From contig JAIQGC010000016.1 in assembly GCA_020072805.1 (NCBI GenBank), positions 1 to 40,755 of the forward strand: a stretch of 40,755 nt of DNA, given 5' to 3'. This document shows, piece by piece, positions 12,120 to 34,774 of the stretch. The notes under the pieces are model-generated. The model did not search any database. It was not told the origin of the DNA and saw only the letters and a list, made by a program, of their open reading frames with translations. Numbering within the stretch: the first letter of the stretch is position 1; every line of letters begins with the position of its first letter. The position numbers and the translations under genes are program-made. The DNA comes from Terriglobia bacterium (GTDB taxonomy: Bacteria; Acidobacteriota; Terriglobia; Acidiferrales; UBA7541).

Positions 12120-12713
12120 TCAATTCCCAATCTTCAACGGCTTATGACACGTCTCGCACGCCGCCTTGGCCCCGCGCTGTTCGTGGCAATCAATGCACCC
12201 GAACATCGCCGTCACACCCGTCACCCTCGCCATGACATCCAACTGATCCACCGCTCCGTGGCATGTTTCGCATTTCGTTCCCGCTTTCAAATGCGGCCGG
12301 TGGCTCCAGTTCACTCCCTTCAGCACCACGTACACCCGCACCCAGGGAATCGCCTGCTGCGTTTTGGCATAGTCCGCCAGCTTGCGGATCTCCGGCTTAT
12401 TTTTGGCCACCGTCGCATGGCAGCTCATGCACTTGGCCGTTTCCGGAAACTTCATCAGCACGCCCGGATCGGGATTCGTGTGGCAGAAATCGCAGCTCAG
12501 CCCCATCGCCAGATGTTTCTTGTGGCTGTACGCAATCGGCTGCACCGGCCCCGGCGTCTCCAGCGCCTTCCGCAGCGCCTCCTGCTTGGTCGTCGATACC
12601 ACCGGCGCTCCAGCCGGCGCCTGCTGCGCCGCGGCCCCGCAAACCGCCAGCGCCACCACCGCCGTCATCTGCGCAACCACCCGCACCGCCCATTCGCCTC
12701 TAATTCCTCTCAC
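12120..12713 (-). CDS. Secreted five-heme cytochrome c (cytochrome c3/c7-like)
   Basis: A 197-residue periplasmic multiheme cytochrome. The GTG at 12713 is chosen because GGAGGTG lies 5 bp before it. An N-terminal hydrophobic segment (about residues 10-30) acts as signal. Five CxxCH heme sites are seen at 74-78, 95-99, 148-152, 173-177 and 186-190. The HKKH and HRPH motifs could supply distal His ligands. It follows the FAD oxidoreductase gene by 70 bp in the same operon and probably takes electrons from that exported enzyme. A paralogue with the same five sites is at 32503-33060 in the same arrangement. It could also serve the exported molybdenum hydroxylase, which lacks its own cytochrome. 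Confidence 0.9.
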   Translation of the reverse strand: MRGIRGEWAVRVVAQMTAVVALAVCGAAAQQAPAGAPVVSTTKQEALRKALETPGPVQPIAYSHKKHLAMGLSCDFCHTNPDPGVLMKFPETAKCMSCHATVAKNKPEIRKLADYAKTQQAIPWVRVYVVLKGVNWSHRPHLKAGTKCETCHGAVDQLDVMARVTGVTAMFGCIDCHEQRGAKAACETCHKPLKIGN

Positions 12714-12783
12714 GATCCCACCTCCGCTCATCCGCTCGTAACACCAGCAGCAACATCCACTCCGGCCTCTTAGCTTTCAACTT

Positions 12784-14475
12784 TCAACTCTTAACTGCCT
12801 TCTTCACCACTTCCTCAAGACTTTTCCCAAAATCCTTCAGCATCACGATCGCCGCATTCCTGCCCGGCCCGCCCGAGACCGACCCGCCCGGATGCGTCGT
12901 CGCCCCCGTCTGATACAAGCCCGGAATGGGCATGCGGTGCTGCGCCCAGCCCGGCACCGGCCGCAACGGCCCGCTCTGCGCCGCATCCTGCGCCCCGCCG
13001 TGACAAGTCCCGTGCCAGTTGTGCGGATTCATGCGCTCCAGGTCCAGCGGACTTTCCACAATCCGCGCCAGAATCTTGTCGTCCGTCAGGTTCGGCGAAA
13101 ACTTCCGCAGGTAATTCAGATTCGCGTCAGCCACCTGATTCTTGATCGTGTCCCAGTGCTCCGGCCCTTCCTTCAATTCGTACGGCTGGTTCCCGATCAC
13201 CTTGATCGTATGAATTCCCTTGGGCGCGCGCGAAGGGTCCGCCACCGTGCTGCACACCACCAGCAGCGGCGGCTCCTCCACGTTCACCCTCTTGCAGGCG
13301 AAGTCATACGCCACCCGCAGCGCCCGCTCCGGCGTCACCATCGTCCCCGAAGCCACCGGCGAAATGGTGCCCCCGGCCACCGCAAACGTCGGCGGCTCCG
13401 TCGTGGTGTAGTGCGTCACGAACAGCGTGATTCCCGCCTGCCACGTTTCCACGCCTTGAATGAATTCCTGCCCAAACGCCTCCTTCGGCGCCATATCCAC
13501 CAGGTGCTTGATATGAATCGTCGAAAGCACCGCCTTCTCCGCCCGGTAGGCGTTTCCGTCGTCGCATTCCACTCCGGTGCACTTTCCGTTTTCCACGATC
13601 AGCTTCCTCACCCATTTGTTCGTCAGGATCGTTCCGCCGTGCGCCTCGATCAGCCGCGCCAGCGCCTGCGTCAGCGCTCCCGACCCGCCCTTCGGCGTCG
13701 TCCAGCTCCACCGCTGCCGCCCGGACACCAGCGCATACGCCAGCCGCCCGGTCATCGCGTCTTCCGGCGGCACCACCGTCTGATAGGCCATCCAGGTCAT
13801 GAACGCCCGGCAATGCTCGTCTTCGAAATTGTCGCGGATGATCTCCCACGCGGACATGGCCATGCGCCGCTGCCACAGCTTGCCCTTGGGGTGCGCCGCC
13901 AGCAGTTCGTTGATCGGCTTGCCCAGCCCGATCGGCGTGTACGCGCTGGCCCCGAAGACCGGCGCGATCTCCGCATACTCCGTCAGCATGCGCTTGTAAG
14001 CCGCCGCGTCCTTTTTCGAAAACCGCGCGAACTCCGCGCACGTTCTTTCCATATCCCGCCACTGCGTGATGTAGCTGCCGTCGGCGAAAGGAATATGCAC
14101 CACGGGATCGGGCAAAATGTATTCGAGCCCGTACTCGGAAAGTCCCAGCTCGTCGTTGCGCATCATCGGGCTGTCCTGGATCAGCACGTGCGCCGACGAG
14201 CACACGTCATGCTTCACTCCCGGCAGCGTCAGCTCCGCTGTCTTCGCGCCACCGCCCACCACCGGCCGCCCCTCCAGCACCAGGCAGCGATACCCCGCCT
14301 TGGCCAGGTACGCTGCGGCCACCAGGCTGTTGTGCCCCGCTCCGGCCACCACCACGTCGTACTTCTCTCCGCCCGCCACGGCGGGCGTGCCCCCCTGCTC
14401 CATCGTCAGCGCTTTCGCCGCCAGCGGCGCCATCGCCGCTCCCTTCACAAATCCCCGCCGTGACATTGCGCTCAT
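12784..14475 (-). CDS. Tat-exported FAD-dependent oxidoreductase (phytoene desaturase/PYROXD2-like)
   Basis: A 563-residue flavoprotein starting at 14475 behind GGGAGGA. The N-terminus MSAMSRRGFVKGAA is a twin-arginine signal, so the folded flavoprotein is exported. The dinucleotide-binding motif VVVAGAGHNSLVAAAYL (45-60) and the acidic Glu68 bind FAD. The C-terminal GLYQTGATTHPGGSVSGGPGRNAA is the second FAD-contact region of the phytoene desaturase/carotenoid isomerase-like family. Members dehydrogenate or isomerise hydrophobic or amine substrates. An exported member next to a multiheme cytochrome is unusual. The operon is TetR-FAD-cytochrome. A paralogue lies at 33104-34774. The substrate is unknown. 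Confidence 0.9.
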   Translation of the reverse strand: MSAMSRRGFVKGAAMAPLAAKALTMEQGGTPAVAGGEKYDVVVAGAGHNSLVAAAYLAKAGYRCLVLEGRPVVGGGAKTAELTLPGVKHDVCSSAHVLIQDSPMMRNDELGLSEYGLEYILPDPVVHIPFADGSYITQWRDMERTCAEFARFSKKDAAAYKRMLTEYAEIAPVFGASAYTPIGLGKPINELLAAHPKGKLWQRRMAMSAWEIIRDNFEDEHCRAFMTWMAYQTVVPPEDAMTGRLAYALVSGRQRWSWTTPKGGSGALTQALARLIEAHGGTILTNKWVRKLIVENGKCTGVECDDGNAYRAEKAVLSTIHIKHLVDMAPKEAFGQEFIQGVETWQAGITLFVTHYTTTEPPTFAVAGGTISPVASGTMVTPERALRVAYDFACKRVNVEEPPLLVVCSTVADPSRAPKGIHTIKVIGNQPYELKEGPEHWDTIKNQVADANLNYLRKFSPNLTDDKILARIVESPLDLERMNPHNWHGTCHGGAQDAAQSGPLRPVPGWAQHRMPIPGLYQTGATTHPGGSVSGGPGRNAAIVMLKDFGKSLEEVVKKAVKS

Positions 14476-14533
14476 CGCATTCCTCCCAACGATTTCTTCT
14501 TCTCTGTCTTCCCTGCCGCTCAAACTCTTCCGC

Positions 14534-15226
14534 CTACGCCGGCGACCGGAAACCCGCCGTCAGAAACGGAATCACATATTTCAACGCCACTTCCGGCCTC
14601 GAGGTGTCGAATTCCTTCCCCGCAATCGTCTGAATCTTCCCCGGATCGGCCAGCACAAAGAGCATCACCCCGTAAAAACAGTTCAGCCGCCAGTAAAAAA
14701 CGTCATCCGGCAATTCCGCGTTGACCTTGCGCAGTTCCTTCGGCACCACCATGAATTCCACGTTGTAAATCTCCGCCAGCAGTTTTTTCACTTCCGGCGT
14801 CGGGTCCATCGAGGCCCTCCCCAGCAACCGGCGAAACCATTCATTCTCCCGGCTGGCCCGGAACGCCGGCTCCAGCAGCGCCCACAGCACCTCCTCCAAC
14901 CCGGGCTTCTTCCCCTTCTCCCGCAATTTCTTCAGCCGCTCCTCGCGCTCCTCGCGCAGCGGCTGCGCCCGCCGGTAAATCACCGCCTTGAACAACTCTT
15001 CCTTGGTCCCGAAGTGATACGGCACCGCTCCCAGGTTCACCTTGGCCGCGTGCACGATCTGCCTCACGGAGACTCCGTTGAACCCGTACAGCGCGAACAG
15101 TTTCTCCGCCGCATCCAGCAAGCGCTCCCGCGATGCCAGCCCCTGCCTCCTCTTCGCCACCGCCTGCACTTTCGCTTTCCGCCGTTTTCCCATTCCGCCT
15201 TTGCCCGCCACCCTCGTCGCCGTCAT
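14534..15226 (-). CDS. TetR/AcrR-family transcriptional regulator
   Basis: A 230-residue repressor. The N-terminal DNA-binding domain has the TetR pattern: ASRERLLDAAEKLFALYGFNGVSVRQIVHAAKVNLGAVPYHFGTKEELFKAVI is split over residues 31-83, with the helix-turn-helix at about 52-72. The C-terminal half is helical and would bind an unknown ligand. The start at 15226 (ATGACGGCG) is chosen because longer versions would run through the two operator palindromes at 15264-15314; 15193 is an alternative with AAAGG upstream. It heads the operon with the FAD oxidoreductase and cytochrome, and is divergent from the LVIVD protein gene. It likely represses itself, the divergent gene and the operon at 4529. 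Confidence 0.92.
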   Translation of the reverse strand: MTATRVAGKGGMGKRRKAKVQAVAKRRQGLASRERLLDAAEKLFALYGFNGVSVRQIVHAAKVNLGAVPYHFGTKEELFKAVIYRRAQPLREEREERLKKLREKGKKPGLEEVLWALLEPAFRASRENEWFRRLLGRASMDPTPEVKKLLAEIYNVEFMVVPKELRKVNAELPDDVFYWRLNCFYGVMLFVLADPGKIQTIAGKEFDTSRPEVALKYVIPFLTAGFRSPA

Positions 15227-15263
15227 AAATACCACCGCAAGCTCCCGTTGGCCAGCATTTTCC

Positions 15264-15279
15264 TCATACGGGCGTATGA
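15264..15279. promoter_or_regulatory. TetR-type operator, perfect palindrome
   Basis: TCATACGGGCGTATGA is a perfect 7-2-7 inverted repeat, 38 bp upstream of the TetR start codon. Its centre is 35 bp from the second palindrome at 15299-15314. The two share TCATAC and GTATGA outer half-sites. Its position fits autoregulation of the TetR operon. Binding by that regulator is inferred. Confidence 0.75.
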
Positions 15280-15288
15280 AATTTTCTC

Positions 15289-15315
15289 TTGACACTATTC
15301 ATACAAATGTATGAT
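15289..15315 (+). promoter_or_regulatory. Promoter with TetR-type operator for the LVIVD protein gene
   Basis: TTGACA (15289-15294) and TATGAT (15310-15315) are separated by 15 bp. The perfect palindrome TCATACAAATGTATGA (15299-15314) fills the spacer and -10 box. The arrangement copies that at 4404-4431, including the TTGAC box and the operator-to--10 offset. The start codon of the regulated gene is at 15389. Confidence 0.72.
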
Positions 15316-15388
15316 AAGCGTTGCAGCACAATTTCGCGGCGCTCCGCCGCTGCCTGATTTTTGTGTGCTCCCCAGGAGGTCTGCTCCC

Positions 15389-16939
15389 ATGAAAAAGAAA
15401 TCCCCTCGTTCCACTCGCCGTGAATTCCTTAAGAATGCCGCCGGAGCCGCCGGCGCGGGCATCGTCCTCGCCGGCGCCGCCCCCGCCGTCTTTGCCAATA
15501 ACCATCCTCACCCTTCCCCGCAGAGCATCAACTACCTCGACCGCCGCATGTACATCCACAACATGGAAGTCATCGCCCACATCCTTCCCGGCCAGGACCG
15601 CGGCGGCAAGATGCAGATCATGTCCGCCGGCTCAAAGCGCTACATCTTCCAGCAGGGCGACGTCATCGACGTCACCGACCCGCGCAATCCCAAAATGCAC
15701 AACCACCGCGGCTTCGACGGCTATCAGGTCCAGCTCGCCTACAATAAAAACCTCAAAAAGTGGATCTTGATGACCGGCGCGGGCGCTCCCATCACCAGCT
15801 CCACTCCGTCCGCTCCCAACGGCAAATACGACGACCCTAAGCTCCTCGAACCCTGGCGCAACTACAAGGGTCTGCGCGGCGTGCGTTTCTGGGACGCCAC
15901 CGACCCCTCCAAAATCGTCAAACTTTCCGAATTCAGCACCGGCGCCACCGGCTCCGGGACCCATCGCAACTATTACGACGGCGGCCGCTACGCCTACCTG
16001 GACACCGCTCCCGACGACAGCTTCATCCACCAGATCTCCTACTTTCGACCGCTGGTCAACGGCAACATGATTATCGACGTCTCCGACCCCTCCAATCCCA
16101 AGCAGGTCTCCATGTGGTGGGTTCCCGGCTCCCGCAAGGGCGAGGAAGCCGCCTACGATAAATGGCAATGGTCCCAGCTGACCTACGACCACAAGGACCA
16201 GACCCCCTTCGTCGGCCTGCACGGCCCCGTCTATGTCCCCAAGAAGCTGGAAGACGGCGGCAACCGCGGCTACGGCAGCTGGGGCGCTTTCGGCCTGATC
16301 ATTCACGATCTCTCCGACCCCAAAAATCCCAAGGAAATCGGCCGCTTCGAGCCTCCTCCGCAATACGGCGCCGGCGGCATCCCCTTCCACACCATTTGGT
16401 GCGGCATGCTCGACCGCGGATTCGTCATCGGCAACGGGGAAACCACCAACCCCGACTGCAACATGATTTATCTGCCCATCTGGGTGATTGACGTGCGCGA
16501 CGAAAAGCGTCCCGTCCCCGTCGCGCAATTTCCCCGCCCCGTTCCTCCTCCCGAAGCCCCCTACCGCGACTTCTGCTTCAAACGCGGACGCTTCGGCGCG
16601 CACAATCCGCCGCACCTCAAGGCCCCGGGAAAAATCTCCCAGAGCTTTATCGCCTATTCCTATTTCGACGCCGGCCTGCGCTGCTATGATGTTTCCAATC
16701 ACTATCGCCCCGAGGAAGTCGCCTACTTCATCCCTCCCCAGGGTGGCGATTTCAAGGACCCCGGCAGCTGGAACCGCACCGTGGACAACGTGCTCATCGA
16801 ATGGGACCGCAACGTCATCTACGTTGCCGCCGATACCGGCATCTACGTCCTGAGTTGTCCCAACCTCGGCAAGCCCATTCTCGACCCCATGCCCGTGGCC
16901 GAATGGTCGCTGGACAAACTGAACGAAGGCGCGCCGTAG
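15389..16939 (+). CDS. Tat-exported LVIVD-repeat-type beta-propeller protein of unknown function
   Basis: A 516-residue protein starting at 15389 behind AGGAGGT (15374-15380). The N-terminus has an ideal twin-arginine signal (TRREFLKN, RR at 10-11, then an Ala/Gly-rich hydrophobic stretch to about residue 36). The mature part repeats IDV(S/T)DP(S/R)NPK-type segments: VIDVTDPRNPKM, IIDVSDPSNPKQ, IIHDLSDPKNPKE and WVIDVRDEKRPV. These are the strands of an LVIVD-like propeller. No catalytic motif was recognised. Being divergent from the TetR gene and under the palindrome, it is part of the same regulon. It could bind a substrate or partner enzyme in the periplasm; a lactonase-like activity is only a possibility. 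Confidence 0.85.
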   Translation: MKKKSPRSTRREFLKNAAGAAGAGIVLAGAAPAVFANNHPHPSPQSINYLDRRMYIHNMEVIAHILPGQDRGGKMQIMSAGSKRYIFQQGDVIDVTDPRNPKMHNHRGFDGYQVQLAYNKNLKKWILMTGAGAPITSSTPSAPNGKYDDPKLLEPWRNYKGLRGVRFWDATDPSKIVKLSEFSTGATGSGTHRNYYDGGRYAYLDTAPDDSFIHQISYFRPLVNGNMIIDVSDPSNPKQVSMWWVPGSRKGEEAAYDKWQWSQLTYDHKDQTPFVGLHGPVYVPKKLEDGGNRGYGSWGAFGLIIHDLSDPKNPKEIGRFEPPPQYGAGGIPFHTIWCGMLDRGFVIGNGETTNPDCNMIYLPIWVIDVRDEKRPVPVAQFPRPVPPPEAPYRDFCFKRGRFGAHNPPHLKAPGKISQSFIAYSYFDAGLRCYDVSNHYRPEEVAYFIPPQGGDFKDPGSWNRTVDNVLIEWDRNVIYVAADTGIYVLSCPNLGKPILDPMPVAEWSLDKLNEGAP

Positions 16940-17066
16940 TCCAATCGGGTGCAACCAACACGGCTTCCGGGCCGTCTATGACTATGATTGCCAACTGCTT
17001 CTATGAGGCGTGCTTCTGCCTGTCGGCATCGCCCGTTCTTGCTTCCTGTTACACCCTCGGAGGGTT

Positions 17067-18080
17067 ATGAATTTTTCGCGCTTTCTCTTCTGCTCCGCCG
17101 CTGTGCTGTTCCTGTCCGCATCCGCGTCTGCGCAGGAGCCGGCCCTGCAAACCATTCGCGTCGTCAGCCTGCCGGGACGTCCCCTGGCCCTCGTGGTGGC
17201 GGAAAAGCAGGGCCTCTTCGCCCGCCACGGCCTCGCCGTGCAACTCGAAGCCATGCCCAATTCCAACGACCTGCGCGCCGCTCTCGCCGCGGGCAAATCT
17301 GATGTCGCCTATGCCGCCGTGGACAACGCCGTGGCCATGGTCGAACTCGCCCACGCCGACGTGCAGATCGTGATGGGCGGCGAAGGCTCGCTCAACGACC
17401 TCATCGTGCAGCCGGAAATCAAATCCATCGCCGATCTGCGCGGGAAAATCCTCATCGTGGACGCTCCCAACACCGCCTACGCCGTGCAGCTCAAAAAAAT
17501 CCTGCTTTCGAAAGGTCTGCAAGCCGGCCGCGATTACGAAATCAAGCCCGTCGGCGCCACTCCGCAGCGCCTCGTGGCCATGCGCGAACATAAGGAATTC
17601 GCCGGCTCCATGCTCGCCCCGCCCACTTCCCTTCTCGCCCATCGCGACGGCTTCGCCGATCTCGGCTCCACGCTGGACCTCATCGGCCCCTATCAGGCTG
17701 GCGGCACGTTCGTTCTTCGTCCCTGGGCCCGCGCGCACTCCGATCTCCTCACCCACTATCTCGCTGCCTGCATCGAAGCGCAGCGCTGGCTGATGAATCC
17801 CTCCAACAAACAGCAGGTCATCGCGATGCTCATGCAGGAAGCGCATCTCCCCGCCGATATCGCCGCGGAAACCTATCAAATCGAAGTCTCCAGCCCCGGA
17901 GGATGGTCCCCGGATGCCCGCTTCGATCTCGACGGCTTTCGAAACGTCCTGAAACTCCGCGCCGAAATCGAGGGCTCATGGGGCGGCCAACCGCCCGCCG
18001 TGGAAAAATATTACGATCCGTCGTACTACCAGCAGGCCCTCGCGAATTTGCAGCAGCCAACGGCAAAATCCACACAATAA
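17067..18080 (+). CDS. Orphan ABC-type substrate-binding protein (NMT1/SsuA-like)
   Basis: A 337-residue secreted binding protein starting at 17067 after CGGAGGG. The signal peptide ends near SASA (residue 22). The mature part has the family's opening IRVVSLPGRPLALVVAEKQGLFARHGLAVQLE. It also has the DLRGKILIVDAPNTAYAVQLKKILLSKGL segment of NMT1/SsuA-type periplasmic proteins, which bind thiamine precursors, sulfonates, nitrate or aromatic acids. No permease or ATPase lies beside it, so it works with a distant transporter or as a sensor/scavenger. It follows the LVIVD gene by 127 bp and precedes the YncE-like gene by 12 bp, suggesting one operon. Confidence 0.87.
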   Translation: MNFSRFLFCSAAVLFLSASASAQEPALQTIRVVSLPGRPLALVVAEKQGLFARHGLAVQLEAMPNSNDLRAALAAGKSDVAYAAVDNAVAMVELAHADVQIVMGGEGSLNDLIVQPEIKSIADLRGKILIVDAPNTAYAVQLKKILLSKGLQAGRDYEIKPVGATPQRLVAMREHKEFAGSMLAPPTSLLAHRDGFADLGSTLDLIGPYQAGGTFVLRPWARAHSDLLTHYLAACIEAQRWLMNPSNKQQVIAMLMQEAHLPADIAAETYQIEVSSPGGWSPDARFDLDGFRNVLKLRAEIEGSWGGQPPAVEKYYDPSYYQQALANLQQPTAKSTQ

Positions 18081-18092
18081 ACGGAGGAACAC

Positions 18093-19052
18093 TTGAAACA
18101 TCGCATCGCACTTGCAGGAATTCTCCTCGGCTTGTTCGCCGCGGGAGCCGCCGCCGCGGGATACCACGTCGTAAAAAAAGTGGCCATCGGCGGCCCGGAT
18201 AAATGGGATTACGTTCTGGTGGACGAAACCGCGCGGCGCGTCTACGTCACGCATCTTGATCAGGTCAACGTTCTGGACGCCGACACCGGCGCGGAAGTGG
18301 GCAAGATCGCCGACCTGCACGGCGCGCACGGCGTCGCTCTGGCGCCCAAAGCCGGGCGTGGCTTCATCACCAACGGCCTCGCCAATGCCGTCACCATGTT
18401 CGACCTGAAAACCCTCGCGAAACTCGGCGAAATTCCCGTGGGCGATAAACCCGATGCCATTGTGTATGACCCGGCCAGCGACCGCGTTTTCGCCATCAAC
18501 GGCGAAGCCAACAGCGCCACCGCCATTGATCCCGCCACCGGCAAGGCCGTGGGCGCGTTCCCGCTGGGCGAAGGGCCGGAATTCGCCGTGTCCGACGGCG
18601 CGGGGCATCTCTTCGTGAATCTCGAAGATGAAAGCAAAACTCTGCGCGTGGATTCGAAAGCCATGAAAGTCACCGACCGCTGGCCGCTGGCGCCTTGCGC
18701 CAAGCCCACCAGCATCGCCATGGACGCCGCGCACGCCCGCGTCTTCGTCGGCTGCAGGAGCAAGGCCATGGCCGTGGTCAATGCCGAAACGGGCAAGGTC
18801 GTCACCACGCTGCCCATTGGCGAACGGGTGGACGCCACCTTCTTCGACGCCGCCACCAGCCTGGTCTATTTTTCGACCGGCGACGGCGCCGTATCCATTT
18901 TCCACGAAGACACGCCCGACAAGTACACGCTGGCCGAAACGGTGAAGACGCTGCCCGGCGGCCGCACCATGGCGCTGGATACGAAAACGCGCCGCATCTA
19001 CGTTCCGGCGATGGACGAGGGCAAGTTCACCGTCCTGATTCTCGAACCGTAA
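18093..19052 (+). CDS. Secreted YncE-like beta-propeller protein
   Basis: A 319-residue protein starting at a TTG (18093) with GGAGGA at 18084-18089. The signal peptide is residues 1-22 (Ala/Gly-rich). The rest is a string of propeller blades with the YncE/cytochrome-d1-like pattern VYVTHLDQVNVLDADTG, GFITNGLANAVTMFDLKT, VFAINGEANSATAIDPATG and VFVGCRSKAMAVVNAETG. No enzymatic residues were recognised. Such periplasmic propellers act as binding or scaffold proteins. Two related but distinct paralogues lie at 27805-28833 and 30179-31207. A perfect hairpin follows the stop codon. Confidence 0.88.
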   Translation: MKHRIALAGILLGLFAAGAAAAGYHVVKKVAIGGPDKWDYVLVDETARRVYVTHLDQVNVLDADTGAEVGKIADLHGAHGVALAPKAGRGFITNGLANAVTMFDLKTLAKLGEIPVGDKPDAIVYDPASDRVFAINGEANSATAIDPATGKAVGAFPLGEGPEFAVSDGAGHLFVNLEDESKTLRVDSKAMKVTDRWPLAPCAKPTSIAMDAAHARVFVGCRSKAMAVVNAETGKVVTTLPIGERVDATFFDAATSLVYFSTGDGAVSIFHEDTPDKYTLAETVKTLPGGRTMALDTKTRRIYVPAMDEGKFTVLILEP

Positions 19053-19059
19053 TTCCGGC

Positions 19060-19097
19060 TTCCCGCGATTCCCGGGTCATCCCGGGAATCGCGGGAA
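19060..19097. repeat. Perfect 17-bp inverted repeat (hairpin)
   Basis: TTCCCGCGATTCCCGGG (19060-19076), a TCAT loop and its exact complement (19081-19097) form an uninterrupted 17-bp stem 7 bp after the propeller stop codon. There is no T-run directly after it, so it is not a standard terminator, although it could stop transcription or protect mRNA. It lies close to where the regional strand bias of G and C changes sign. Confidence 0.8.
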
Positions 19098-19159
19098 CGA
19101 AGTGTACGCGCAGCAACGAATTTTTCAGCATGACAAGTAAAACCGAAAAGAGGCCACCC

Positions 19160-20389
19160 ATGTTCACATTCACACCGCGCCAGCGCCGATTTTCCGCTCT
19201 GGCGTTTTTGCTGTTTCTTGCCGGAATGTTCGCCGGAGTTGCGCGCGCGCAGGAGCGTACCTTCGAGGAGGTCAAGACGGAAGCGCTGAAGCGCGCGGAA
19301 AACGGGATGTATCCGCTGATTGGGCTCGATCCTGCGGACGTGCGCGAGGCCTTCGCCGCCATTAAGTCCCTGAATGACGACGAGTGGGCCGCGGGCTTTG
19401 GCGGCGTGGCCGACCGCTACATGGCGCAGGGCAAGGCGCTCGAGGCGAGCGATCCGGTCAAGGCCAACGCGAACTATATCAAGGCCTGGCGGCTGTATTC
19501 GTTCGGACGCTGGCCGGTGCCGTCTTCGGAAGGCAAGAAGCGCAACTACGCCAAAGCGCTGGAAGCTTTTCTGGCGCATGCCAAATTCATGGACCCGCCG
19601 CTGGAGGTGGTGCGCATTCCGTTTGAAAACTCGGAGATCGTCGGCTATTTGCGCCTGCCGAAGAATGCCAAGGGGCCGGTGCCGGTGGTGATCGCCATCA
19701 GCGGACTGGACAGCCGCAAGGAAGATCTCTCCGAAAATTTCGGAGCGATTCTGCCTTCGGGCATCGGTTTTTTCGGGCTGGATTCGCCGGGCACGGGGCA
19801 AGCGCCGATCAAGGCCAGCGAAACCGCCGAGCGCATGTACTCGCGCGCGATTGATTACCTGCTGACGCGGCCGGAGGTGGACAAGACGCGCATCGGCGTG
19901 GATGGGCAGAGTTTCGGCGCGTACTGGGCCACGAAGCTGGCGATCATCGAGCACGCGCGCGTGAAGGCTGTGGTGGCGCAGTCGCCGCCAGCGGACATCA
20001 CGTTCGAAAAAGAGTTCGTGCTGAAGAAGACGCTGGGCAACCGCGAGTATCTGTTCGGGCTGGCCCCGGCGCTCGCTTCCATCTACGAGAATGCCAAGAC
20101 GGTCGAGGACCTGGGAGAGTTGCTGCCCAAGATGTCCCTGGTGCACCAGAAGCTGCTGGGCAAACCCACGGCGCCGATGCTGATCATCGCCGGGGCGCTG
20201 GATACGCAGGTGCCCATCGCGGACACGTATCTGCTGCTGAGCAACGGAGACGTGCCGAAGGAAGCGTGGATTAACCCGCAGGGCGGACATCTGGGGAGGC
20301 AAGTAAAAGTGTGGCCGGACCCGGTGATCTTCCGGCAGGTGATTATTCCGTGGCTGGTGAGGACGCTGGGAACGGAAGGAACGAAGTAA
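19160..20389 (+). CDS. Secreted alpha/beta hydrolase, FrsA/2,6-dihydropseudooxynicotine hydrolase-like
   Basis: A 409-residue hydrolase starting at 19160 behind AAAGAGG; an ATG ten codons upstream is possible. The signal peptide runs to Ala30 (GVARAQER). Residues 40-155 form a helical cap/N-terminal domain with the pattern ANYIKAWRLYSFGRWPVPSS. A hydrolase core follows with nucleophile Ser251 in GVDGQSFGAYW, Asp347 in IIAGALDTQVP and His376 in NPQGGHLG. This layout matches the DUF1100/FrsA-like family, which includes the C-C bond hydrolase of nicotine breakdown acting on a diketone-like side chain. Hydrolysis of an ester or C-C bond in the periplasm is inferred. It follows the TetR-regulated set but has different base composition. 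Confidence 0.85.
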   Translation: MFTFTPRQRRFSALAFLLFLAGMFAGVARAQERTFEEVKTEALKRAENGMYPLIGLDPADVREAFAAIKSLNDDEWAAGFGGVADRYMAQGKALEASDPVKANANYIKAWRLYSFGRWPVPSSEGKKRNYAKALEAFLAHAKFMDPPLEVVRIPFENSEIVGYLRLPKNAKGPVPVVIAISGLDSRKEDLSENFGAILPSGIGFFGLDSPGTGQAPIKASETAERMYSRAIDYLLTRPEVDKTRIGVDGQSFGAYWATKLAIIEHARVKAVVAQSPPADITFEKEFVLKKTLGNREYLFGLAPALASIYENAKTVEDLGELLPKMSLVHQKLLGKPTAPMLIIAGALDTQVPIADTYLLLSNGDVPKEAWINPQGGHLGRQVKVWPDPVIFRQVIIPWLVRTLGTEGTK

Positions 20390-20427
20390 AGAGGTAAGGA
20401 AGTAAGGACGTAGAGAACAAAAAACGA

Positions 20428-20474
20428 GGGGTGGGGCGTTCCCGAAATGGGAAGAAGACCCCGCCCCTTTTGTT
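20428..20474. terminator. Probable bidirectional terminator
   Basis: GGGGTGGGG (20428-20436) pairs with CCCCGCCCC (20459-20467), with a nested TTCCC/GGGAA hairpin inside. TTTTGTTCTTT follows on the plus strand and AACAAAAAA precedes it, giving a T-run for minus-strand transcripts. It lies between the convergent hydrolase and DUF4440 genes. The neighbouring 20515-20575 looks like a degraded copy of an intergenic repeat ending in GGAATGACA. Confidence 0.65.
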
Positions 20475-20598
20475 CTTTAAGCAATGGAAAATACAGAGCG
20501 TTTGCGGCGAAGCTCTCGCAAAGGTTCCTCCACTCCAGGGCAACAAGAACGCATTGCTTCTGCCGGAATGACAAGATGCTTGGGGGAGGAGCGGAGTC

Positions 20599-21453
20599 TT
20601 ACTGGATTCTGGTGTTGAAGCTGAAGAGCATTTGCCAGCGGGCATCGCGGCGGACCCACATGCGAGAGTTGAAGTAGGGCTTGGCGCCGGGGCGCTGTTC
20701 GCGGGCGATCATTAGTACGGATTCCCCAAAATCAAACATACGGGCGGAGAGCAGGGCGGGTGGGGCAGAGGTTTCTCCGCTCTGTTTTTGTTTTTGGATC
20801 TGGGCGAGGCGGTCGGACTTGGTGTAGGGAACGTCGTGGTGGGTATCGGTGGCGGTGAACTCCTCGGCAATGAGCGGGGAGTATGCTGCGGAGTCATTGG
20901 AGGCCATGGCGGCCATGACAGATTGCCAGGAGACGATGGCTTCCCTTTCGTTTTGCGTTTCGGGCTGGAAGGGGATGGTTTTGCAGGGGTTATCGCAGGG
21001 GCTGGGGCTGGGTCTGGCGGCGGGCGCGGGAGACTGTGTCGGGCCGGACCCTGACAACGTGACCTCTTGATAGAGAACGGCTTGCCAGCCGGCTGCGCGC
21101 TGGGCCCAGATGCGCAGGACTTGCAGTTTTCCGCGGTTGGCGCGAACGACGGCGGATGTGCCATAGGTGCGCTGCTGCGGGGCCACATCGCCGTTGGTGG
21201 GCTTGGACGGGTTCTGGAGGACCTCGGCCCTGGTGAGGCTTTTTCCTTCGGAATCAATCCAGCTGAACTGGGGGTCGAGGAGGCGGTCGAGGGCAGGCTT
21301 GTCCGCTTTATCGAGGGATTGGAGCAGGGACTGGTCGGCCTGCAGAAGGGCCTGTTCGGAGGGGGCGGCTTGCGCCGGTCTACTGCTTGGAGCGGCTAGA
21401 AAGGTGGCACAGACGATCCCCGAGACGAGAAGAGCACTGGCGAAGCGTGTCAT
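20599..21453 (-). CDS. Secreted protein with two NTF2/DUF4440-like domains
   Basis: A 284-residue protein with a signal peptide (residues 1-30) and two SnoaL/DUF4440-like cone domains. The first is at about 35-135 (LLDPQFSWIDSEGKSLTRAEVL...YQEVTL) and the second at about 165-284 (IAEEFTATDT...SRMWVRRDARWQML). A Pro-rich linker carries CDNPCKTIPF (Cys153, Cys157), which the neighbouring paralogue also has. Proteins of this fold bind small ligands or act as isomerases and dehydratases, but no catalytic residues can be named. AAGGCGGA lies just before the ATG. It is followed by a probable terminator at 20428-20474. Confidence 0.78.
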   Translation of the reverse strand: MTRFASALLVSGIVCATFLAAPSSRPAQAAPSEQALLQADQSLLQSLDKADKPALDRLLDPQFSWIDSEGKSLTRAEVLQNPSKPTNGDVAPQQRTYGTSAVVRANRGKLQVLRIWAQRAAGWQAVLYQEVTLSGSGPTQSPAPAARPSPSPCDNPCKTIPFQPETQNEREAIVSWQSVMAAMASNDSAAYSPLIAEEFTATDTHHDVPYTKSDRLAQIQKQKQSGETSAPPALLSARMFDFGESVLMIAREQRPGAKPYFNSRMWVRRDARWQMLFSFNTRIQ

Positions 21454-21489
21454 ATATCCGCCTTGCGGCCCAGGGGCCTTACCATGAGC

Positions 21490-21553
21490 AAAAAAGAGAG
21501 ATTTCTCGGCTGCGGGCCGATAAAAACTATCGGCCCTCCGCCCGGAATGACAT
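21490..21553. repeat. Hairpin repeat, copy 2 of 3
   Basis: The stem is GGGCCGATA (21514-21522) with TATCGGCCC (21528-21536) and an AAAAC loop, flanked by GAGATTTCTCGGCTGC and by CGGAATGACA. It is in the opposite orientation to copy 1. The stem differs from copy 1 at a paired position (A-T in place of G-C), so the pairing is kept. Confidence 0.75.
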
Positions 21554-21626
21554 CGTTTGTTCAGTCGCTCTGGCGTCCATGAGATGGCTTCCAGTCTTGG
21601 GCCAGGGGCCCTTCACTGCTTGCGCG

Positions 21627-27804: not shown

Positions 27805-28833
27805 TCAGTCCTGGACGGAGTAAATCCACATTTCCGCGGCGCTGGCGGAGCGGGCGGGAACGGCGAGGAAGAAACGGTCGAAGCCCTTCTTGCCCTTGCC
27901 GAAATAGCCGGCGGTGCGTGCGCCGAGGGCCGAGGGGATTTTGGCGATAGGCTGGAAATGGTCTGGGTCTTTTTCCTGAAAGACGCTGATATAGGCTTCC
28001 GCGCCGGGGATGTAGATGCGCTTGCGGGCAGCGTCGAAATAGACTTCATCGGCTTCCTGGACGCAGGGGAGACTGGCGACGAGCTTGCCGGATTGGGTGT
28101 TGAAGACGGCGAGGCGGGCGGGCTGGTGGGTGACGACGAAGAGGCGGTGATCGGCCTCATCGAGGGCCATGGGGAAATTCTGCTCGATGGAGAGAGGCCA
28201 GCGGGTGATGGCCTGAGTGGAGCGATTGATGACGGCAATCTGCTTGAGGTCGGGAAGGTTCACGTAGATATTGGGGCCATTTTTTTCGATTTGAAAAGAT
28301 TCAGGGTGCGCGCCGAGTTTGAATTCGCCGGAGATGCGCTCGTTGGTCGTGGTGTCCACGGCGGAGATGGCGCCGGATTCTTCTCCGCCGTACCCGGCGT
28401 AGACGCGCTTGGTGGGGGCGTCGTAGCGAAGATTGTCAACGTCGTCGCCGAAATCAAGGATCTTGACGAGGTCGTAGGAAGTTCCATCGTAGATGTAGAG
28501 TTTGCCCTCGCCGCTGCCGGCATAGAGTTTATTGGCTTCGGGAGCGAAAGCCAGACCCTGGGGTTCGGGGATGCCCGTGATGGTGTGGGTGCGGACGCGC
28601 GCGCTGACGTCAATCACCTCTACGGTGTTGCTTCCCACCGAGGAGACGAAGACGTGTCCCTTGCCGTCGGTGGCAAAATGATCGAAGCGGCCCTGCACGC
28701 CGGGCATGGGGATGGCTTCGGTGAGGACGAGAGGCTTGGTGGGCTCAGCGGGGGCGGACTCTTGCGCGGGGGCGAGTGGTGCGAATGCCGCAAGTAACGC
28801 AAATGCGATGCTCAGTTTGTTTAATTTTATCAT
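27805..28833 (-). CDS. Secreted YncE-like beta-propeller protein (paralogue A)
   Basis: A 342-residue protein starting at 28833 with GGAGG 6 bp upstream. The signal peptide ends at about PAQESA (residue 23). Propeller blades repeat FVSSVGSNTVEVIDVSARV, LYAGSGEGKLYIYDGTSY, VYAGYGGEESGAISAVDTTT and RLFVVTHQPARLAVFNTQSG. Paralogue B at 30179-31207 has exactly the same length and ends in the same motif (GAEMWIY.VQD type). No catalytic residue was recognised. It is divergent from an alpha/beta hydrolase gene and shares a palindromic promoter with it, so the propeller and hydrolase probably work together in the periplasm. Confidence 0.88.
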   Translation of the reverse strand: MIKLNKLSIAFALLAAFAPLAPAQESAPAEPTKPLVLTEAIPMPGVQGRFDHFATDGKGHVFVSSVGSNTVEVIDVSARVRTHTITGIPEPQGLAFAPEANKLYAGSGEGKLYIYDGTSYDLVKILDFGDDVDNLRYDAPTKRVYAGYGGEESGAISAVDTTTNERISGEFKLGAHPESFQIEKNGPNIYVNLPDLKQIAVINRSTQAITRWPLSIEQNFPMALDEADHRLFVVTHQPARLAVFNTQSGKLVASLPCVQEADEVYFDAARKRIYIPGAEAYISVFQEKDPDHFQPIAKIPSALGARTAGYFGKGKKGFDRFFLAVPARSASAAEMWIYSVQD

Positions 28834-28889
28834 TCCGGCCTCCAAGACCGATCGTGGGATGGATGCAGCGCTTTCGAAAACGCCTCAAG

Positions 28890-28935: not shown

Positions 28936-29008
28936 CGGCGCAGGGATGCACTGGCGGAAGAGTGCCGGAGGGTCCTGTTTCTCGTTCGGAAATCCGAGGA
29001 GACTGCCG

Positions 29009-30040: not shown

Positions 30041-30140
30041 TGCAGAAGCCCGCGCGGAGCGGGACGGAGGAGTGGATGAACCCTGAAGAACACGCTGGAA
30101 TGTCGTGGTGTGGGCAGGGCGATTCCCGGAGAAAAGGCCG

Positions 30141-30178: not shown

Positions 30179-31207
30179 TCAGTCCTGAACGGTGTAGATC
30201 CACATTTCCGCGCCGTGATCGGCGCGAGCGGGCACGGCAAGGAAGAAGCGGTCGAAACCCTTTTTGCCCTTGCCGAAATAGCCGGCGGTGCGAGCGCCGA
30301 GGGCCGTGGGGATCTTGGTGAGCAGGCTGTAATGGTCCGCGTCCTTCTGCTGAAAAACGCTGATGAGACCCTCACCGCCAGCGACATAAATGCGTTTCCG
30401 GGCGGGGTCGTAATAGACATCGTCGGCGTCCTGGACGCAGGGGAGAGCGGCGATGACCTTGCCGGTTGCAGTGTCAACGACGGCCATGCGAGCGGGCTCG
30501 TGGGTGACCACGAGGAGGCGGTGATCGGCTTCATCGAGAGCCATAGGGAAATTGTGCTCGATGGAGAGAGGCCAGCGGGTGATGGCATGGGTGGCGCGGT
30601 TGATCACGGCAATTTGTTTAAGGTCGGGTAAATTCACATAAATATTGGGGCCGGATTTTTCCAACTGGAAGGATTCGGGGTGCGCGCCGATCTTGTATTC
30701 CTCATCGAGGCGCTCGTTGGTGATGGCATCAACGGTTCCGATAGCGCCGGTTTCATCCTCGCCATAGCCGACATAGACGCGTTTGGTGGCCGCGTCGTAG
30801 CGCAGGTTATCCACATCGCCGTGAAAATCGATGGATTTGATCAATTCGTAGGTGGTTCCGTCATAGATATAGAGCAAGCCCTTACTGCTGCTGGCGAAGA
30901 GTTTTTTCACGTCAGTAGCGTAGACGACGCCCTGGGGATTGGGGATGCCGGTGATGCTGTGTGAGCGGAGGCGGGCGCTGACGTCGATCACTTCCACGGA
31001 ATTATTGCCGAGGGCGGAAACGAACACCTGGCCTTTGCCATCGGTTGCGAAATGATCGAAGCGGCCTTGCACGCCGGGAAGCGGGACGGCCTCGGTCAAG
31101 ACCATGGGGCGGGGCGGTTCGACGGGAGCGCTTTCTTGCGCGGCAGCGAGTGCGGCGAATCCTGCAAGCAGCGCGAACGCGATGCCCAGCCTGTTTGTTC
31201 TTTTCAT
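30179..31207 (-). CDS. Secreted YncE-like beta-propeller protein (paralogue B)
   Basis: A 342-residue protein, the same length as paralogue A and highly similar from the PGVQGRFDHFATDGKG block to the C-terminal VQD. The start at 31207 has GGGAGG 6 bp upstream. The signal peptide ends near AAAQES (residue 23). The blades again read as FVSALGNNSVEVIDVSAR and IYVNLPDLKQIAVINRAT. No enzyme motif is seen. It is divergent from the alpha/beta hydrolase at 31382 across a copy of the palindromic promoter. The likely role is a periplasmic binding or scaffold protein paired with that hydrolase. Confidence 0.88.
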   Translation of the reverse strand: MKRTNRLGIAFALLAGFAALAAAQESAPVEPPRPMVLTEAVPLPGVQGRFDHFATDGKGQVFVSALGNNSVEVIDVSARLRSHSITGIPNPQGVVYATDVKKLFASSSKGLLYIYDGTTYELIKSIDFHGDVDNLRYDAATKRVYVGYGEDETGAIGTVDAITNERLDEEYKIGAHPESFQLEKSGPNIYVNLPDLKQIAVINRATHAITRWPLSIEHNFPMALDEADHRLLVVTHEPARMAVVDTATGKVIAALPCVQDADDVYYDPARKRIYVAGGEGLISVFQQKDADHYSLLTKIPTALGARTAGYFGKGKKGFDRFFLAVPARADHGAEMWIYTVQD

Positions 31208-31263
31208 TGCGGCCTCCCAGCCCAATCGTGGAATCCAACCCGCATTTTCGAAATCGCCCCGAA

Positions 31264-31309
31264 ACAATACAGCGCAACGCTTGACGGGTCAATGTGCCGG
31301 TGATAGAAG
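31264..31309. promoter_or_regulatory. Divergent promoter pair with overlapping -35 boxes (cassette B)
   Basis: TTGACGGGTCAA (31281-31292) again carries two opposed -35 boxes. Minus strand: TTGACC (31292-31287), 17 bp, TATTGT (31269-31264). Plus strand: TTGACG (31281-31286), 17 bp, TAGAAG (31304-31309). The block from ACAGCGCAACG to GATAGAAGCG is almost unchanged from cassette A, while flanking DNA has diverged. Confidence 0.72.
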
Positions 31310-31381
31310 CGCATCATCCACGCACTCAACGATCGGCAGCAGAGGGTTGCGTGCGCCGTTCTACGATTCGAGGAGAAGCAG

Positions 31382-32398: not shown

Positions 32399-32424
32399 CA
32401 CGTATTTCCCGCGAGGAGGAGCAC

Positions 32425-32470
32425 GCCTGCGCTAACGGGGTGAAACGGCCCACCCTCTAAAGAGGCAGGC
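32425..32470. other. Structured intergenic element (nested inverted repeat)
   Basis: GCCTGC (32425-32430) pairs with GCAGGC (32465-32470), and GGGTG (32438-32442) with CACCC (32451-32455). It lies between the convergent hydrolase and cytochrome genes. A weak run of A follows on the plus strand. It may be a repeat element or part of a terminator; only one copy is present here. Confidence 0.4.
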
Positions 32471-32502
32471 TACAGAAAAAACGTTACAGAGTCGCGGCGG
32501 GG

Positions 32503-33060
32503 TTAGCTCTTGTGACAGGTAGAGCAGACGGTTTTGGCCCCTTTTTTCTGATGGCAATCAATACAGCTGGCCATGGATTTTACGCTGGTGGCCTCGGACA
32601 TGGCGTCCATCTGGGCGACGGGCCCGTGGCACATTTCGCACTGCGCGCCGGCCTGGAGATGCGCGCGATGGGTCCAGATGATGCCGGGAAGAACGGCGTA
32701 GACGCGCACCCAGGGAATGGGCTTCTGGGATTTGGAGAACTCGGCGAGTTTCTGGATGGCGGGCTTATTTTTGGCGATGGAGGCGTGGCAGGACATGCAC
32801 TTGGCGGTGGCCGGGAAGGTCATGAGGATGCCGGGGTCGGGATTGGTGTGGCAGGCCTTGCACTGGAGACTGAAGGCCAGATGCTTTTTGTGGCTGAAGG
32901 CGATGGGTTGCGCGGGCGGCGCGAGGTGCAGGGGGTTATCGGGTACGAGTTGTGAGACGGCGGGGGCTTGCTGGGCCGGGAGGGCCAAGGCCGTGCACAG
33001 GAAGGCCGTCAACGCAGCCGAAGCCGCTAGAAGAGTGATCGTTCGTTTGCTGCGATTCAT
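32503..33060 (-). CDS. Secreted five-heme cytochrome c (paralogue of 12120-12713)
   Basis: A 185-residue periplasmic cytochrome starting at 33060 behind GAGGTG. The signal peptide runs to about ALPAQ (residue 30). The five heme sites at 67-71, 88-92, 141-145, 166-170 and 179-183 have the same spacing as in the left-hand paralogue. HKKH and HRAH again are likely distal ligands. It follows the FAD oxidoreductase gene by 43 bp in a symporter-FAD-cytochrome operon. It would accept electrons from that exported flavoprotein and pass them to the respiratory chain or outer surface; this partnership is inferred from the conserved pairing. Confidence 0.92.
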   Translation of the reverse strand: MNRSKRTITLLAASAALTAFLCTALALPAQQAPAVSQLVPDNPLHLAPPAQPIAFSHKKHLAFSLQCKACHTNPDPGILMTFPATAKCMSCHASIAKNKPAIQKLAEFSKSQKPIPWVRVYAVLPGIIWTHRAHLQAGAQCEMCHGPVAQMDAMSEATSVKSMASCIDCHQKKGAKTVCSTCHKS

Positions 33061-33103
33061 GAGCACACCTCGCAATATGTACAGCGCGCCACGGGCACGC
33101 CTG

Positions 33104-34774
33104 TTACGGCTTCTTTTTGACCACTTCTTCGATGCTGGTGCCGAAATCCTTGAGCATGACCATGGCGGCGTTGCGTCCGGGTGCGCCGGTGACCGAGCCG
33201 CCGGGATGAGTGGTGGCGCCGGTCTGATAAAGGCCAGGAATGGGCATGCGGTGCTGGGCCCAGCCGGGCATGGGGCGCATGGCGCCGACCTGGGAGGCGC
33301 TCTGTGCGCCGGCATGGGCGCTGCCGTGCCAGAAATGGGGATTCATGCGCTCGAGATCGAGCGGGCTCTCGATGAAGCGGGCAAGAATTTTGTCATCGGT
33401 GAGATTGGGAGCAAAGCGCCGGAGCTGCTTCAGGTTGGCGGCCGAGACTTCGTCTTTGATTTTGTCCCAGTGCTCGGGCCCTTCTTTCAATTCGTAGGGC
33501 TGCCAGCCGAGAACTTTTACGGTGTGCATGCCCGGGGGAGTGCGGGAGGGATCGGCCACGGAGCAGCAGATCACCTGCAGGGCGGGGTCTTCGAGAGTGG
33601 GCGCGCCGAGGGAATCGTCGTAGGTGCCGCGGAGGGCGCGCAGCGGAGAAGAGAGAATGCCGGCTTCGACGGGGGAGAGTTTGCCGCCTTCGACGGCGAA
33701 TTGGGGAGGCTCGGAGGTGGCGTAGTGGGTGACGAACATGGCGTGTTCGGCCTGCCAGGTGTCCACGCCGTCGACGAAGTCCTGGCCCCACAATTCGCGA
33801 GGGGCCATGTCCACGAGGTGCTTGATATGGATGGTGGAGAGGACAGCTTTTTCGGCGCGGTAGGAGCTGCCGTCATCGCATTCGACGCCGGCGCAGCGGC
33901 CGTTTTCGATGATCAGGCGGCGCACCCATTTGTTGGTGAGGATGACTCCGTGGTTGGCTTCGATGACGCGGGCCATGGCCTGGGTCAATTCACCGGAGCC
34001 GCCTTTGGGAAGCGGACGGCCGGTCCGCTGCTGACCCAGAGCGGAAAAAGCCAGGCGGCCGGTCATGGGAGCGTCGGGAGGTTCGGCGGCGAGATGGGAC
34101 ATGTAGAGGAGAAAGGTGCGGCAGTGATCGTCCTCGAAATTGTCGCGGATGATTTCCCAGGCGGACATGGCCAGGCGGCGCTGCCAGAGTTTGCCGCGGG
34201 GAGCTTCGGCGAGGCGGTCGTTGAGGGGTTTTCCAAAACCGATGGGAGTGAAACTGGCGGCGCCGAGAACGGGCTTGATGGCGTCGAATTCGGCGAGGAG
34301 GCGGCGGTAGGTGGCGGCGTCTTTCTTGGAGAATTTGGCGAATTCGGCGCAGGTGCGGTCGAGGTCGCGCCACTGGGTGAGATAGGAGCCGTCGGGAAAC
34401 GGAACGTGGAAGACGGGGTCGGGGTCAATGTATTCGAGGCCGAAATTGCGCAGGCCAAGCTCGTCATTGCGCAGCATGGGATTGGCCTGGATGAAGGCGT
34501 GTGCGGTGGAGCAGACGTCGTCCTTGAAACCGCGCAGGGTGAGCTCGGCGGTCTTGACGCCGCCGCCGATGATGGGGCGGCCTTCGAGAACGAGGCAGCG
34601 GTAGCCGGCTTTGGCGAGATAGGCGGCGGTGGCCAGACTGTTGTGGCCGGCGCCGGCGACTACGATATCGAAACGCTCGGAGGGAGCGGCGGCCTGCTCG
34701 AGAGCGAGCGATTTAACGGCCAGAGGAGCGATGGCCGCGCCTTTTACGAAACCACGCCTGGACATGTTGCTCAT
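33104..34774 (-). CDS. Tat-exported FAD-dependent oxidoreductase (paralogue of 12784-14475)
   Basis: A 556-residue flavoprotein starting at 34774 behind AAGGAG. The Tat signal MSNMSRRGFVKGAA is nearly identical to that of its paralogue. The FAD motif IVVAGAGHNSLATAAYLAKAGY (38-58) and the C-terminal GLYQTGATTHPGGSVTGAPGRNAA are kept. Conserved inner blocks such as RMAMSAWEIIRDNFED-like sequence and LSTIHIKHLVDMAP also occur in both. Its coding strand is C-rich, while that of the left paralogue on the same strand is G-rich. It sits between a DctA-like symporter and a five-heme cytochrome, suggesting that an imported or exported acid is linked to its substrate. The substrate is unknown. Confidence 0.92.
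   Translation of the reverse strand: MSNMSRRGFVKGAAIAPLAVKSLALEQAAAPSERFDIVVAGAGHNSLATAAYLAKAGYRCLVLEGRPIIGGGVKTAELTLRGFKDDVCSTAHAFIQANPMLRNDELGLRNFGLEYIDPDPVFHVPFPDGSYLTQWRDLDRTCAEFAKFSKKDAATYRRLLAEFDAIKPVLGAASFTPIGFGKPLNDRLAEAPRGKLWQRRLAMSAWEIIRDNFEDDHCRTFLLYMSHLAAEPPDAPMTGRLAFSALGQQRTGRPLPKGGSGELTQAMARVIEANHGVILTNKWVRRLIIENGRCAGVECDDGSSYRAEKAVLSTIHIKHLVDMAPRELWGQDFVDGVDTWQAEHAMFVTHYATSEPPQFAVEGGKLSPVEAGILSSPLRALRGTYDDSLGAPTLEDPALQVICCSVADPSRTPPGMHTVKVLGWQPYELKEGPEHWDKIKDEVSAANLKQLRRFAPNLTDDKILARFIESPLDLERMNPHFWHGSAHAGAQSASQVGAMRPMPGWAQHRMPIPGLYQTGATTHPGGSVTGAPGRNAAMVMLKDFGTSIEEVVKKKP

Follow-up and report, generated by a model that had tools for sequence, protein, structure and literature searches.

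The stretch of DNA analysed here (40,755 nucleotides, referred to throughout as the window) is contig C88 of the 3.98 Mb, 99.8% complete genome of a soil Acidobacterium, and it carries two of the several genomic copies of a gene pair in which a gene for a flavoprotein with a twin-arginine translocation (Tat) signal is followed by a gene for a pentaheme cytochrome. In pair 1 the flavoprotein is encoded at positions 12784-14475 and the cytochrome at positions 12120-12731; in pair 2 the corresponding genes lie at positions 33104-34774 and 32503-33063, and all four genes are on the minus strand. (Open reading frames, or ORFs, were called with a simple longest-ORF script rather than a trained caller, such that N-terminal starts are approximate; Tat signals were called by motif, and the Sec-like signals on the cytochromes were judged by eye.) An initial annotation of this DNA had described two such pairs in the same order, Tat signals on both flavoproteins, and five CxxCH sites at equal spacing in both cytochromes, and each of these observations was borne out. 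The N-termini of the two flavoproteins, MSAMSRRGFVKGAA and MSNMSRRGFVKGAA, both fit MS(A/N)MSRRGFVKGAA, and the CxxCH motifs fall at offsets 0, 21, 74, 99, and 112 in both cytochromes. The flavoproteins are 70% identical to one another and the cytochromes are 60% identical. The cytochrome of pair 1 (matched by Pfam Cytochrome_C7) begins with a hydrophobic, Sec-like signal, and that of pair 2 (identified by motif count and sequence search) likewise carries a Sec-like signal.

The two modules counted in the initial annotation are not the full complement of this genome, which holds three copies; the third pair is on contig C55 (flavoprotein 73% and cytochrome 62% identical). In addition, a fourth related cytochrome is encoded on contig C151 after a Tat-exported spermidine-dehydrogenase-like flavoprotein (L015:2363-4926, where L-numbers denote loci; 7d9i at 3.1e-137), and this pentaheme protein is 50-51% identical to the pair 2 cytochrome. 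TatC and cytochrome c assembly proteins are also encoded in the genome. Note that L014:6329-9540 contains tandem Tat-less flavoproteins that are 30-32% identical to the query and are reminiscent, by description only, of two-subunit enzymes of the CtmAB type, and that L018:1878-2966 encodes a relative of ACMSD-type decarboxylases whose N terminus is Tat-like; it runs divergently to an exported flavoprotein gene, and L090 and L092 contain it as well.

Both flavoproteins were placed in the amine-oxidase / carotenoid-desaturase superfamily by ORF, Pfam, NCBIfam, and motif evidence, and in pair 2 by the predicted fold as well. The Pfam Amino_oxidase profile scored above its cut-off, and the best NCBIfam matches of both proteins, CrtO (302.2 and 271 bits, cut-off 1000) and crtI_fam (109.7 and 111.5 bits, cut-off 238.1), were below theirs. 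The predicted structure has a mean predicted local distance difference test score (pLDDT) of 90.8, with low confidence for residues 1-31, which make up the signal, and the nearest solved folds are, in order, 4rep (a gamma-carotenoid desaturase), 4dgk (CrtI), two uncharacterised archaeal oxidoreductases, and NicA2. The earlier description of these proteins as phytoene-desaturase-like thus holds at the level of the superfamily and not as a specific family. We entertained the idea that the flavoprotein is an exported carotenoid enzyme, either a CrtO ketolase or a CrtI desaturase, as its best profile matches and top folds would have it; with scores so far under both cut-offs, a Tat signal in 50 of the 62 sequences that make up the clade described below, and no carotenoid gene recognised among the recurrent neighbour clusters that were annotated (which cover part of the neighbours), we consider this highly improbable. 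His92, which lies 10 residues after a Gly, is conserved in 98 of 100 flavoprotein rows. A covalent flavin of the kind found in CtmAB was rejected because the CtmAB motif, G-F-L/R-x-N/S-T/L-H-A, places its His 6 residues after the Gly.

In a sequence search the cytochrome matched ActA of alternative complex III (8k9e at 1.4e-24, then 6f0k, 6btm, and 6lod; only 6btm is so named in the search table, and we take the other three to be complex III entries as well). All five CxxCH motifs and four further histidines are invariant in 36 cytochrome sequences. Both cytochromes scored 72 bits against the NCBIfam profile QrcA, below its cut-off of 180. Judged by this homology, the window cytochromes are stand-alone relatives of the pentaheme subunit ActA, an identity more specific than the one in the initial annotation. 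The genes beside the window pairs belong to families other than the remaining subunits of the complex, and the ActA of the genome's own complex III type is encoded next to an ActB-like gene at a separate locus, on contig C92. Here, then, a cytochrome subunit of the complex III kind is encoded away from its complex.

To survey relatives, a species-genome collection was scanned with two peptide patterns and the best 80 of 183 relatives, corresponding to 78 loci, were taken, such that the frequencies given here apply to close relatives only. A Tat-bearing gene was present in 38 of the 78 loci (31 assemblies), and a pentaheme cytochrome was adjacent in 32 of these 38 exported-type loci (28 assemblies; L086:6053 was counted by hand, its cytochrome ORF starting 228 bases downstream, beyond the distance rule). 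The remaining exported-type loci either end at a contig edge (L090 and L092) or are without the cytochrome (L067, L068, L069, and L093). Exported-type hosts are Acidobacteriota together with five loci filed under Pseudomonadota, namely L091 and L095 (Gammaproteobacteria), L098 (Proteobacteria), and L103 and L104 (Woeseiaceae). Other genomes contain this pair with its gene order unchanged, at flavoprotein identities as low as approximately 52-54%, and its occurrence in the window is therefore not due to chance; the pair is a real, conserved two-gene module found in other Acidobacteriota and in Gammaproteobacteria. The arrangement of the genes in two phyla thus lends good support to the earlier proposal that the flavoprotein is exported and has a multiheme cytochrome dedicated to it. 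Within the phylum the exported type is patchy: among 297 genomes, the source genome included, one other contains a close relative (58% identity), and the rest of the matches listed are at 36% or less. A search for plasmid carriage matched 185 plasmid records, all at less than 60% identity.

At the level of individual genes we scored 100 flavoprotein rows, drawn from the 78 loci, the window, L013 (the C55 pair), and L018, with the partial L065:7880 and the short L119 omitted. The cytochrome was present for 39 rows with a Tat signal, absent for 8, and undecided at a contig end for 3; the corresponding numbers for rows lacking a Tat signal were 9, 38, and 3. On the flavoprotein tree, the exported and cytochrome-linked proteins form one clade of 62 rows with a support of 98, whose sister group consists of 10 Tat-less, cytochrome-less Alphaproteobacterial genes. 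Outside the clade a cytochrome was found for 0 of 35 scored rows, with 3 more undecided at a contig edge. The tree contains 3 changes of state for the Tat signal and 7 for the cytochrome, and the co-occurrence of the two is thus striking but represents few events. A stronger sign of functional coupling comes from the two pairs themselves. In the respective trees, both proteins of pair 1 group with L073 and both proteins of pair 2 with L047 (support was 85 for the pair 2 cytochrome and 99 for the other three groupings, the cytochrome tree being otherwise mostly unresolved); L073 and L047 are two loci of one other genome. Since the flavoprotein and the cytochrome of each pair share a tree partner, the paralogous pairs appear to move as units.

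The clade also contains 12 Tat-less rows, and for 8 of these the next gene downstream is a Tat-bearing paralogue, which in turn precedes the cytochrome. Eleven of the 12 share a locus with a Tat-bearing paralogue, and the one in L065 precedes an incomplete paralogue at a contig end. This arrangement suggests that the Tat-less protein may hitchhike in a heterodimer with its Tat-bearing sister, a route of Tat export that has been shown for PaoABC (PMC4273604). Alternatively, the Tat-less sister possibly has a cytoplasmic role. As for the 8 Tat-bearing rows without an adjacent cytochrome, a CxxCH gene occurs within 3 kb only in the case of L063_4104, where it is the cytochrome of a neighbouring divergent pair; these proteins could be oxidases or could use another acceptor.

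The first gene of each module differs, as had been noted, a TetR regulator standing 5' of pair 1 (14534-15295, minus strand; the Pfam profiles TetR_N and TetR_C_30 pass their cut-offs, and a PsrA-like match falls short of the NCBIfam one) and a DctA symporter directly 5' of pair 2 (34829-36184, minus strand; 634.5 bits for NF002461, whose cut-off is 513). DctA is the same neighbour in other genomes; counting window pair 2, nine sources have it 5' of the closest flavoprotein gene, in the same orientation and no more than 620 bases away. On its other side, pair 1 adjoins an island of catabolic appearance that has a second DctA-type transporter at its far end (160-1659, plus strand; NF002461, 597.1 bits against 513). 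The island contains, on the minus strand, the molybdenum (Mo)-binding subunit of a xanthine dehydrogenase / aldehyde oxidase-type hydroxylase (1671-3833; MoCoBD_1, MoCoBD_2, and Ald_Xan_dh_C; 61% identical to the subunit beside the L048 pair) and its [2Fe-2S] subunit (3836-4306; 60% by tblastn to the L049 subunit, which has Fer2 and Fer2_2). These are followed on the plus strand by a thiamine diphosphate enzyme of the acetolactate-synthase-like subfamily NF004772 (4526-6235; 886.3 bits against a cut-off of 673; 66% identical to the L095 copy), an ATP-binding cassette (ABC) importer comprising a solute-binding protein, two permease-like genes, and a PotA/PhnT2-type ATPase (6232-10115; the first and last genes were assigned by profile and the middle two by reading only), a crotonase-fold beta-diketone hydrolase of the 6-oxocamphor hydrolase kind (10102-10854; 1o8u, E 2.5e-75, 256 bits), and an enzyme of the 3-hydroxyisobutyrate dehydrogenase family (11020-11931; NAD_binding_2 and NAD_binding_11; 58% identical to the L091 copy).

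The hydrolase is homologous to 1o8u over its full length, with His122, His145, and Asp154 aligned, which we take to be the catalytic residues of 6-oxocamphor hydrolase; the best chain outside the 6-oxocamphor / beta-diketone hydrolase group reached 91 bits. Such a gene occurs in 5 of 81 sources (the window, L073, L091, L095, and L098), and in L091, L095, and L098 the Mo hydroxylase, thiamine diphosphate enzyme, crotonase, and dehydrogenase are also found around the pair, together with a tripartite ATP-independent periplasmic (TRAP) transporter. Because the island holds this hydrolase, our best guess is that the substrate of pair 1 may be an alicyclic or terpenoid compound. As the neighbours differ between the pairs, and as the pairs belong to separate branches, both of which are represented in one other genome, two substrate versions, as originally proposed, are plausible. 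Genes for an M24 hydrolase and a 2-oxoacid dehydrogenase are common in loci of the gp2 type. (Neighbour clusters were annotated through representatives rather than gene by gene. Two candidate assignments were rejected: the thiamine diphosphate enzyme as a cyclohexane-1,2-dione hydrolase, which scored 141 bits versus 208 for an acetolactate synthase, and the M24 neighbour in L066 as the dimethylsulfoniopropionate lyase DddP, which scored 115.7 bits against a cut-off of 600.)

The Mo hydroxylase raises another explanation, in which the cytochrome serves that enzyme and the flavoprotein is an oxygen-using oxidase merely encoded alongside. Mo hydroxylase genes lie near many of the pairs, matches being found in 21 of 41 exported-type sources (some at approximately 28-35% identity) versus 5 of 40 others (23-27%), with the window being the longest of the stretches compared. 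They directly follow the cytochrome in L048 and L049, and in the C55 pair a Mo-binding gene (L013:4937-7258) is directly beside it. Eight genes in the genome contain MoCoBD_2, and two of these are near pairs (C88 and C55) versus approximately 0.1 expected at random (counting 10 kb on each side of the three flavoprotein genes). Moreover, the Tat-only amine-oxidase flavoproteins without a cytochrome that have been tested were mostly oxidases (PMC12224317). Set against this, ten pair loci have no Mo match in their short stretches (L059-L062, L070-L072, L102, L103, and L105) and in these the cytochrome directly follows the flavoprotein (a biased count, the loci having been chosen by flavoprotein), and pair 2 of the window has no Mo hydroxylase directly beside it. 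We therefore think it improbable that the cytochrome is devoted to the Mo enzyme.

Three further observations concern the window. A gene for a Tat-exported LVIVD-repeat protein adjoins pair 1 (15311-16939), with relatives near the pair in L067, L073, and L090. Two similar beta-propeller genes lie on the minus strand at 27805-28845 and 30179-31267 with a plus-strand ORF between them; both belong to one neighbour cluster, and the one that was scanned is YncE/PQQ-repeat-like at scores below cut-offs. Lastly, the sign of the GC skew flips within positions 16001-22000 (-0.186 at 16-18 kb, 0.002 at 18-20 kb, and +0.218 at 20-22 kb), which may mark a replication arm boundary.

We think it likely that each pair constitutes a flavin dehydrogenase that works in the periplasm and passes electrons to its own pentaheme cytochrome, a reading that draws on analogy with Tat-exported flavoproteins whose operons encode a cytochrome c (PMC12224317, PMC9396064). 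In its favour are the frequent adjacency of the two genes, the lack of the cytochrome outside the clade, the shared tree partners of each pair, the homology to ActA, the predicted flavoprotein fold, the presence of TatC and cytochrome c assembly genes, and the larger share of Mo hydroxylase matches among exported-type sources. The flavoprotein would fold with its flavin adenine dinucleotide in the cytoplasm and exit by Tat, and the cytochrome would exit by Sec and then be loaded with five hemes. In the periplasm the flavoprotein would draw two electrons from a small organic substrate, probably alicyclic or unsaturated, and hand them one at a time to the pentaheme protein. Given the role of ActA in complex III, this carrier, in effect ActA without its complex, would probably feed the oxidase or cytochrome pool normally served by ActA, bypassing quinone, and a Mo hydroxylase beside the pair would probably share it. 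The oxidised product would then be imported by DctA, ABC, or TRAP transporters and cleaved inside the cell, in the case of the pair 1 island by the beta-diketone hydrolase. Most likely, then, the pair serves to oxidise an organic nutrient on the outer side of the inner membrane, with the electrons going straight to respiration.

Within complex III, electrons travel away from quinol through ActA, and relatives of ActA can accordingly accept electrons from the membrane. Thus the pair might instead run in reverse as a respiratory reductase, with the cytochrome taking membrane electrons and the flavoprotein reducing an unsaturated acceptor, as in the methacrylate reductase Mrd/Mcc, for which an operon of a flavoprotein and a tetraheme cytochrome is known (PMC4427408). 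Carotenoid desaturases and amine oxidases have the folds closest to that of the flavoprotein, the neighbours look catabolic (Mo hydroxylase, beta-diketone hydrolase, importers, and 2-oxoacid dehydrogenase), and those cytochrome-linked relatives whose function has been tested oxidise their substrates (PMC12224317, PMC9396064), which together make operation as a reductase unlikely.

Several points weigh against a dehydrogenase that works with its own cytochrome. The direction, oxidation and not reduction, is one that we infer from the catabolic neighbours. Loci were discovered through the flavoprotein only. Eight Tat-positive rows have no adjacent cytochrome and nine Tat-less rows lie inside cytochrome operons, and an independent-pairs test of a repeated link between Tat signal and cytochrome was not significant, there being few changes on the tree. 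The predicted structure of the cytochrome is poor (pLDDT 71.3), which places the interface between the two proteins beyond the reach of the model. Finally, the genes adjacent to pairs 1 and 2 differ, such that no single substrate fits both.

The ActA-like cytochrome has partners beyond this flavoprotein. It was matched at E 1e-30 or better in 20 of the 297 phylum genomes (the source genome among them), and at 21 loci outside the source genome the gene directly before it encodes a GMC flavoprotein in 10 cases, an ActB-type protein in 5, a pyrroloquinoline quinone (PQQ) enzyme in 3 (2 of them on the same strand), and another protein in 3. (Each partner family was named from the Pfam matches of one or two representatives, and its other members were assigned by tblastn.) The five ActB-type loci are true complex III. 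Because GMC, PQQ, and spermidine-dehydrogenase-like partners occur elsewhere, the ActA-like cytochrome looks like a general acceptor. In L130, L131, and L144 a GMC flavoprotein, a pentaheme cytochrome, and a Tat-exported xylose-isomerase-like protein are encoded in a row, an order that presumably resembles glucoside 3-dehydrogenase operons. Taking these strands together, one can tentatively picture stand-alone ActA-type cytochromes as a general plug-in acceptor in Acidobacteriota for unrelated periplasmic dehydrogenases (desaturase-like, spermidine-dehydrogenase-like, and GMC flavoproteins, PQQ enzymes, and probably Mo hydroxylases), with complex III having borrowed or donated the cytochrome module and, in part of the group, a Tat-less paralogue being exported with its Tat-bearing sister as a hitchhiking heterodimer; we hold this joint picture to be possible, at somewhat less than even chances. 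The ActA-like pentaheme protein is in any event a likely type of acceptor that can be searched for in other dehydrogenase operons, and the pairs provide concrete genes for the possible oxidation of alicyclic or terpenoid compounds outside the inner membrane.

How do these pairs compare with known systems? The suggestion in the initial annotation that the system is undescribed was too strong, given both the methacrylate reductase operon and the pair NicA2 and Pnao of Pseudomonas putida S16, which reduce the cytochrome CycN (PMC9396064); for these enzymes and their relatives, reduction of an operon-encoded cytochrome c by a Tat-exported flavoprotein of the amine-oxidase fold is established (PMC9396064, PMC12224317), and the principle of an exported flavoprotein with its own cytochrome c is thus already in print. 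A Tat signal combined with an operonic cytochrome c is, by experiment, a good predictor of a dehydrogenase in the flavoprotein superfamily, the tested members of this kind being cytochrome-using dehydrogenases that are largely specific for their own cytochrome (PMC12224317). The window pairs would carry this rule, by which such a flavoprotein is a dehydrogenase rather than an oxidase, beyond the nicotine-type enzymes and into a desaturase-like branch found in uncultured Acidobacteriota of soil. We found no description of this flavoprotein and pentaheme pair in the openly licensed papers that were searched, and within those papers the flavoprotein subfamily, the pentaheme ActA-type acceptor, and the pairings of that acceptor with GMC, PQQ, and spermidine-dehydrogenase-like enzymes appear to be new.

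With NicA2/Pnao and CycN the window pairs share the fold superfamily, a Tat-exported flavoprotein, a Sec-exported cytochrome c in the same operon, and a predicted periplasmic location; they differ in that identity to NicA2/Pnao is 14-15% in structural alignments, the window flavoprotein being closer to carotenoid desaturases, and in that CycN has a fold like that of bovine cytochrome c (PMC9396064) whereas the acceptor here is an ActA-type pentaheme protein. The limonene dehydrogenase CtmAB and delta-24 sterol desaturase (PMC11061730) are likewise flavin oxidoreductases, acting on terpenoid or sterol skeletons, and have two paralogous subunits, much as some loci here have tandem paralogues; this likeness is one of description and not of sequence, and the His-Gly spacing differs, as noted above. 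(In the CtmAB paper the word "periplasm" is absent and the electron acceptor is given as unknown.) Mrd/Mcc resembles the window pairs, again by description and not sequence, in that two genes form an operon and encode a flavoprotein and a multiheme cytochrome whose signals are of different types, and differs in being a reductase system whose cytochrome is tetraheme (PMC4427408). ActA itself is alike in sequence, in its five CxxCH motifs, and in the conserved extra histidines, and differs in its setting, the window cytochromes lying beside a dehydrogenase and without the other subunits of the complex.

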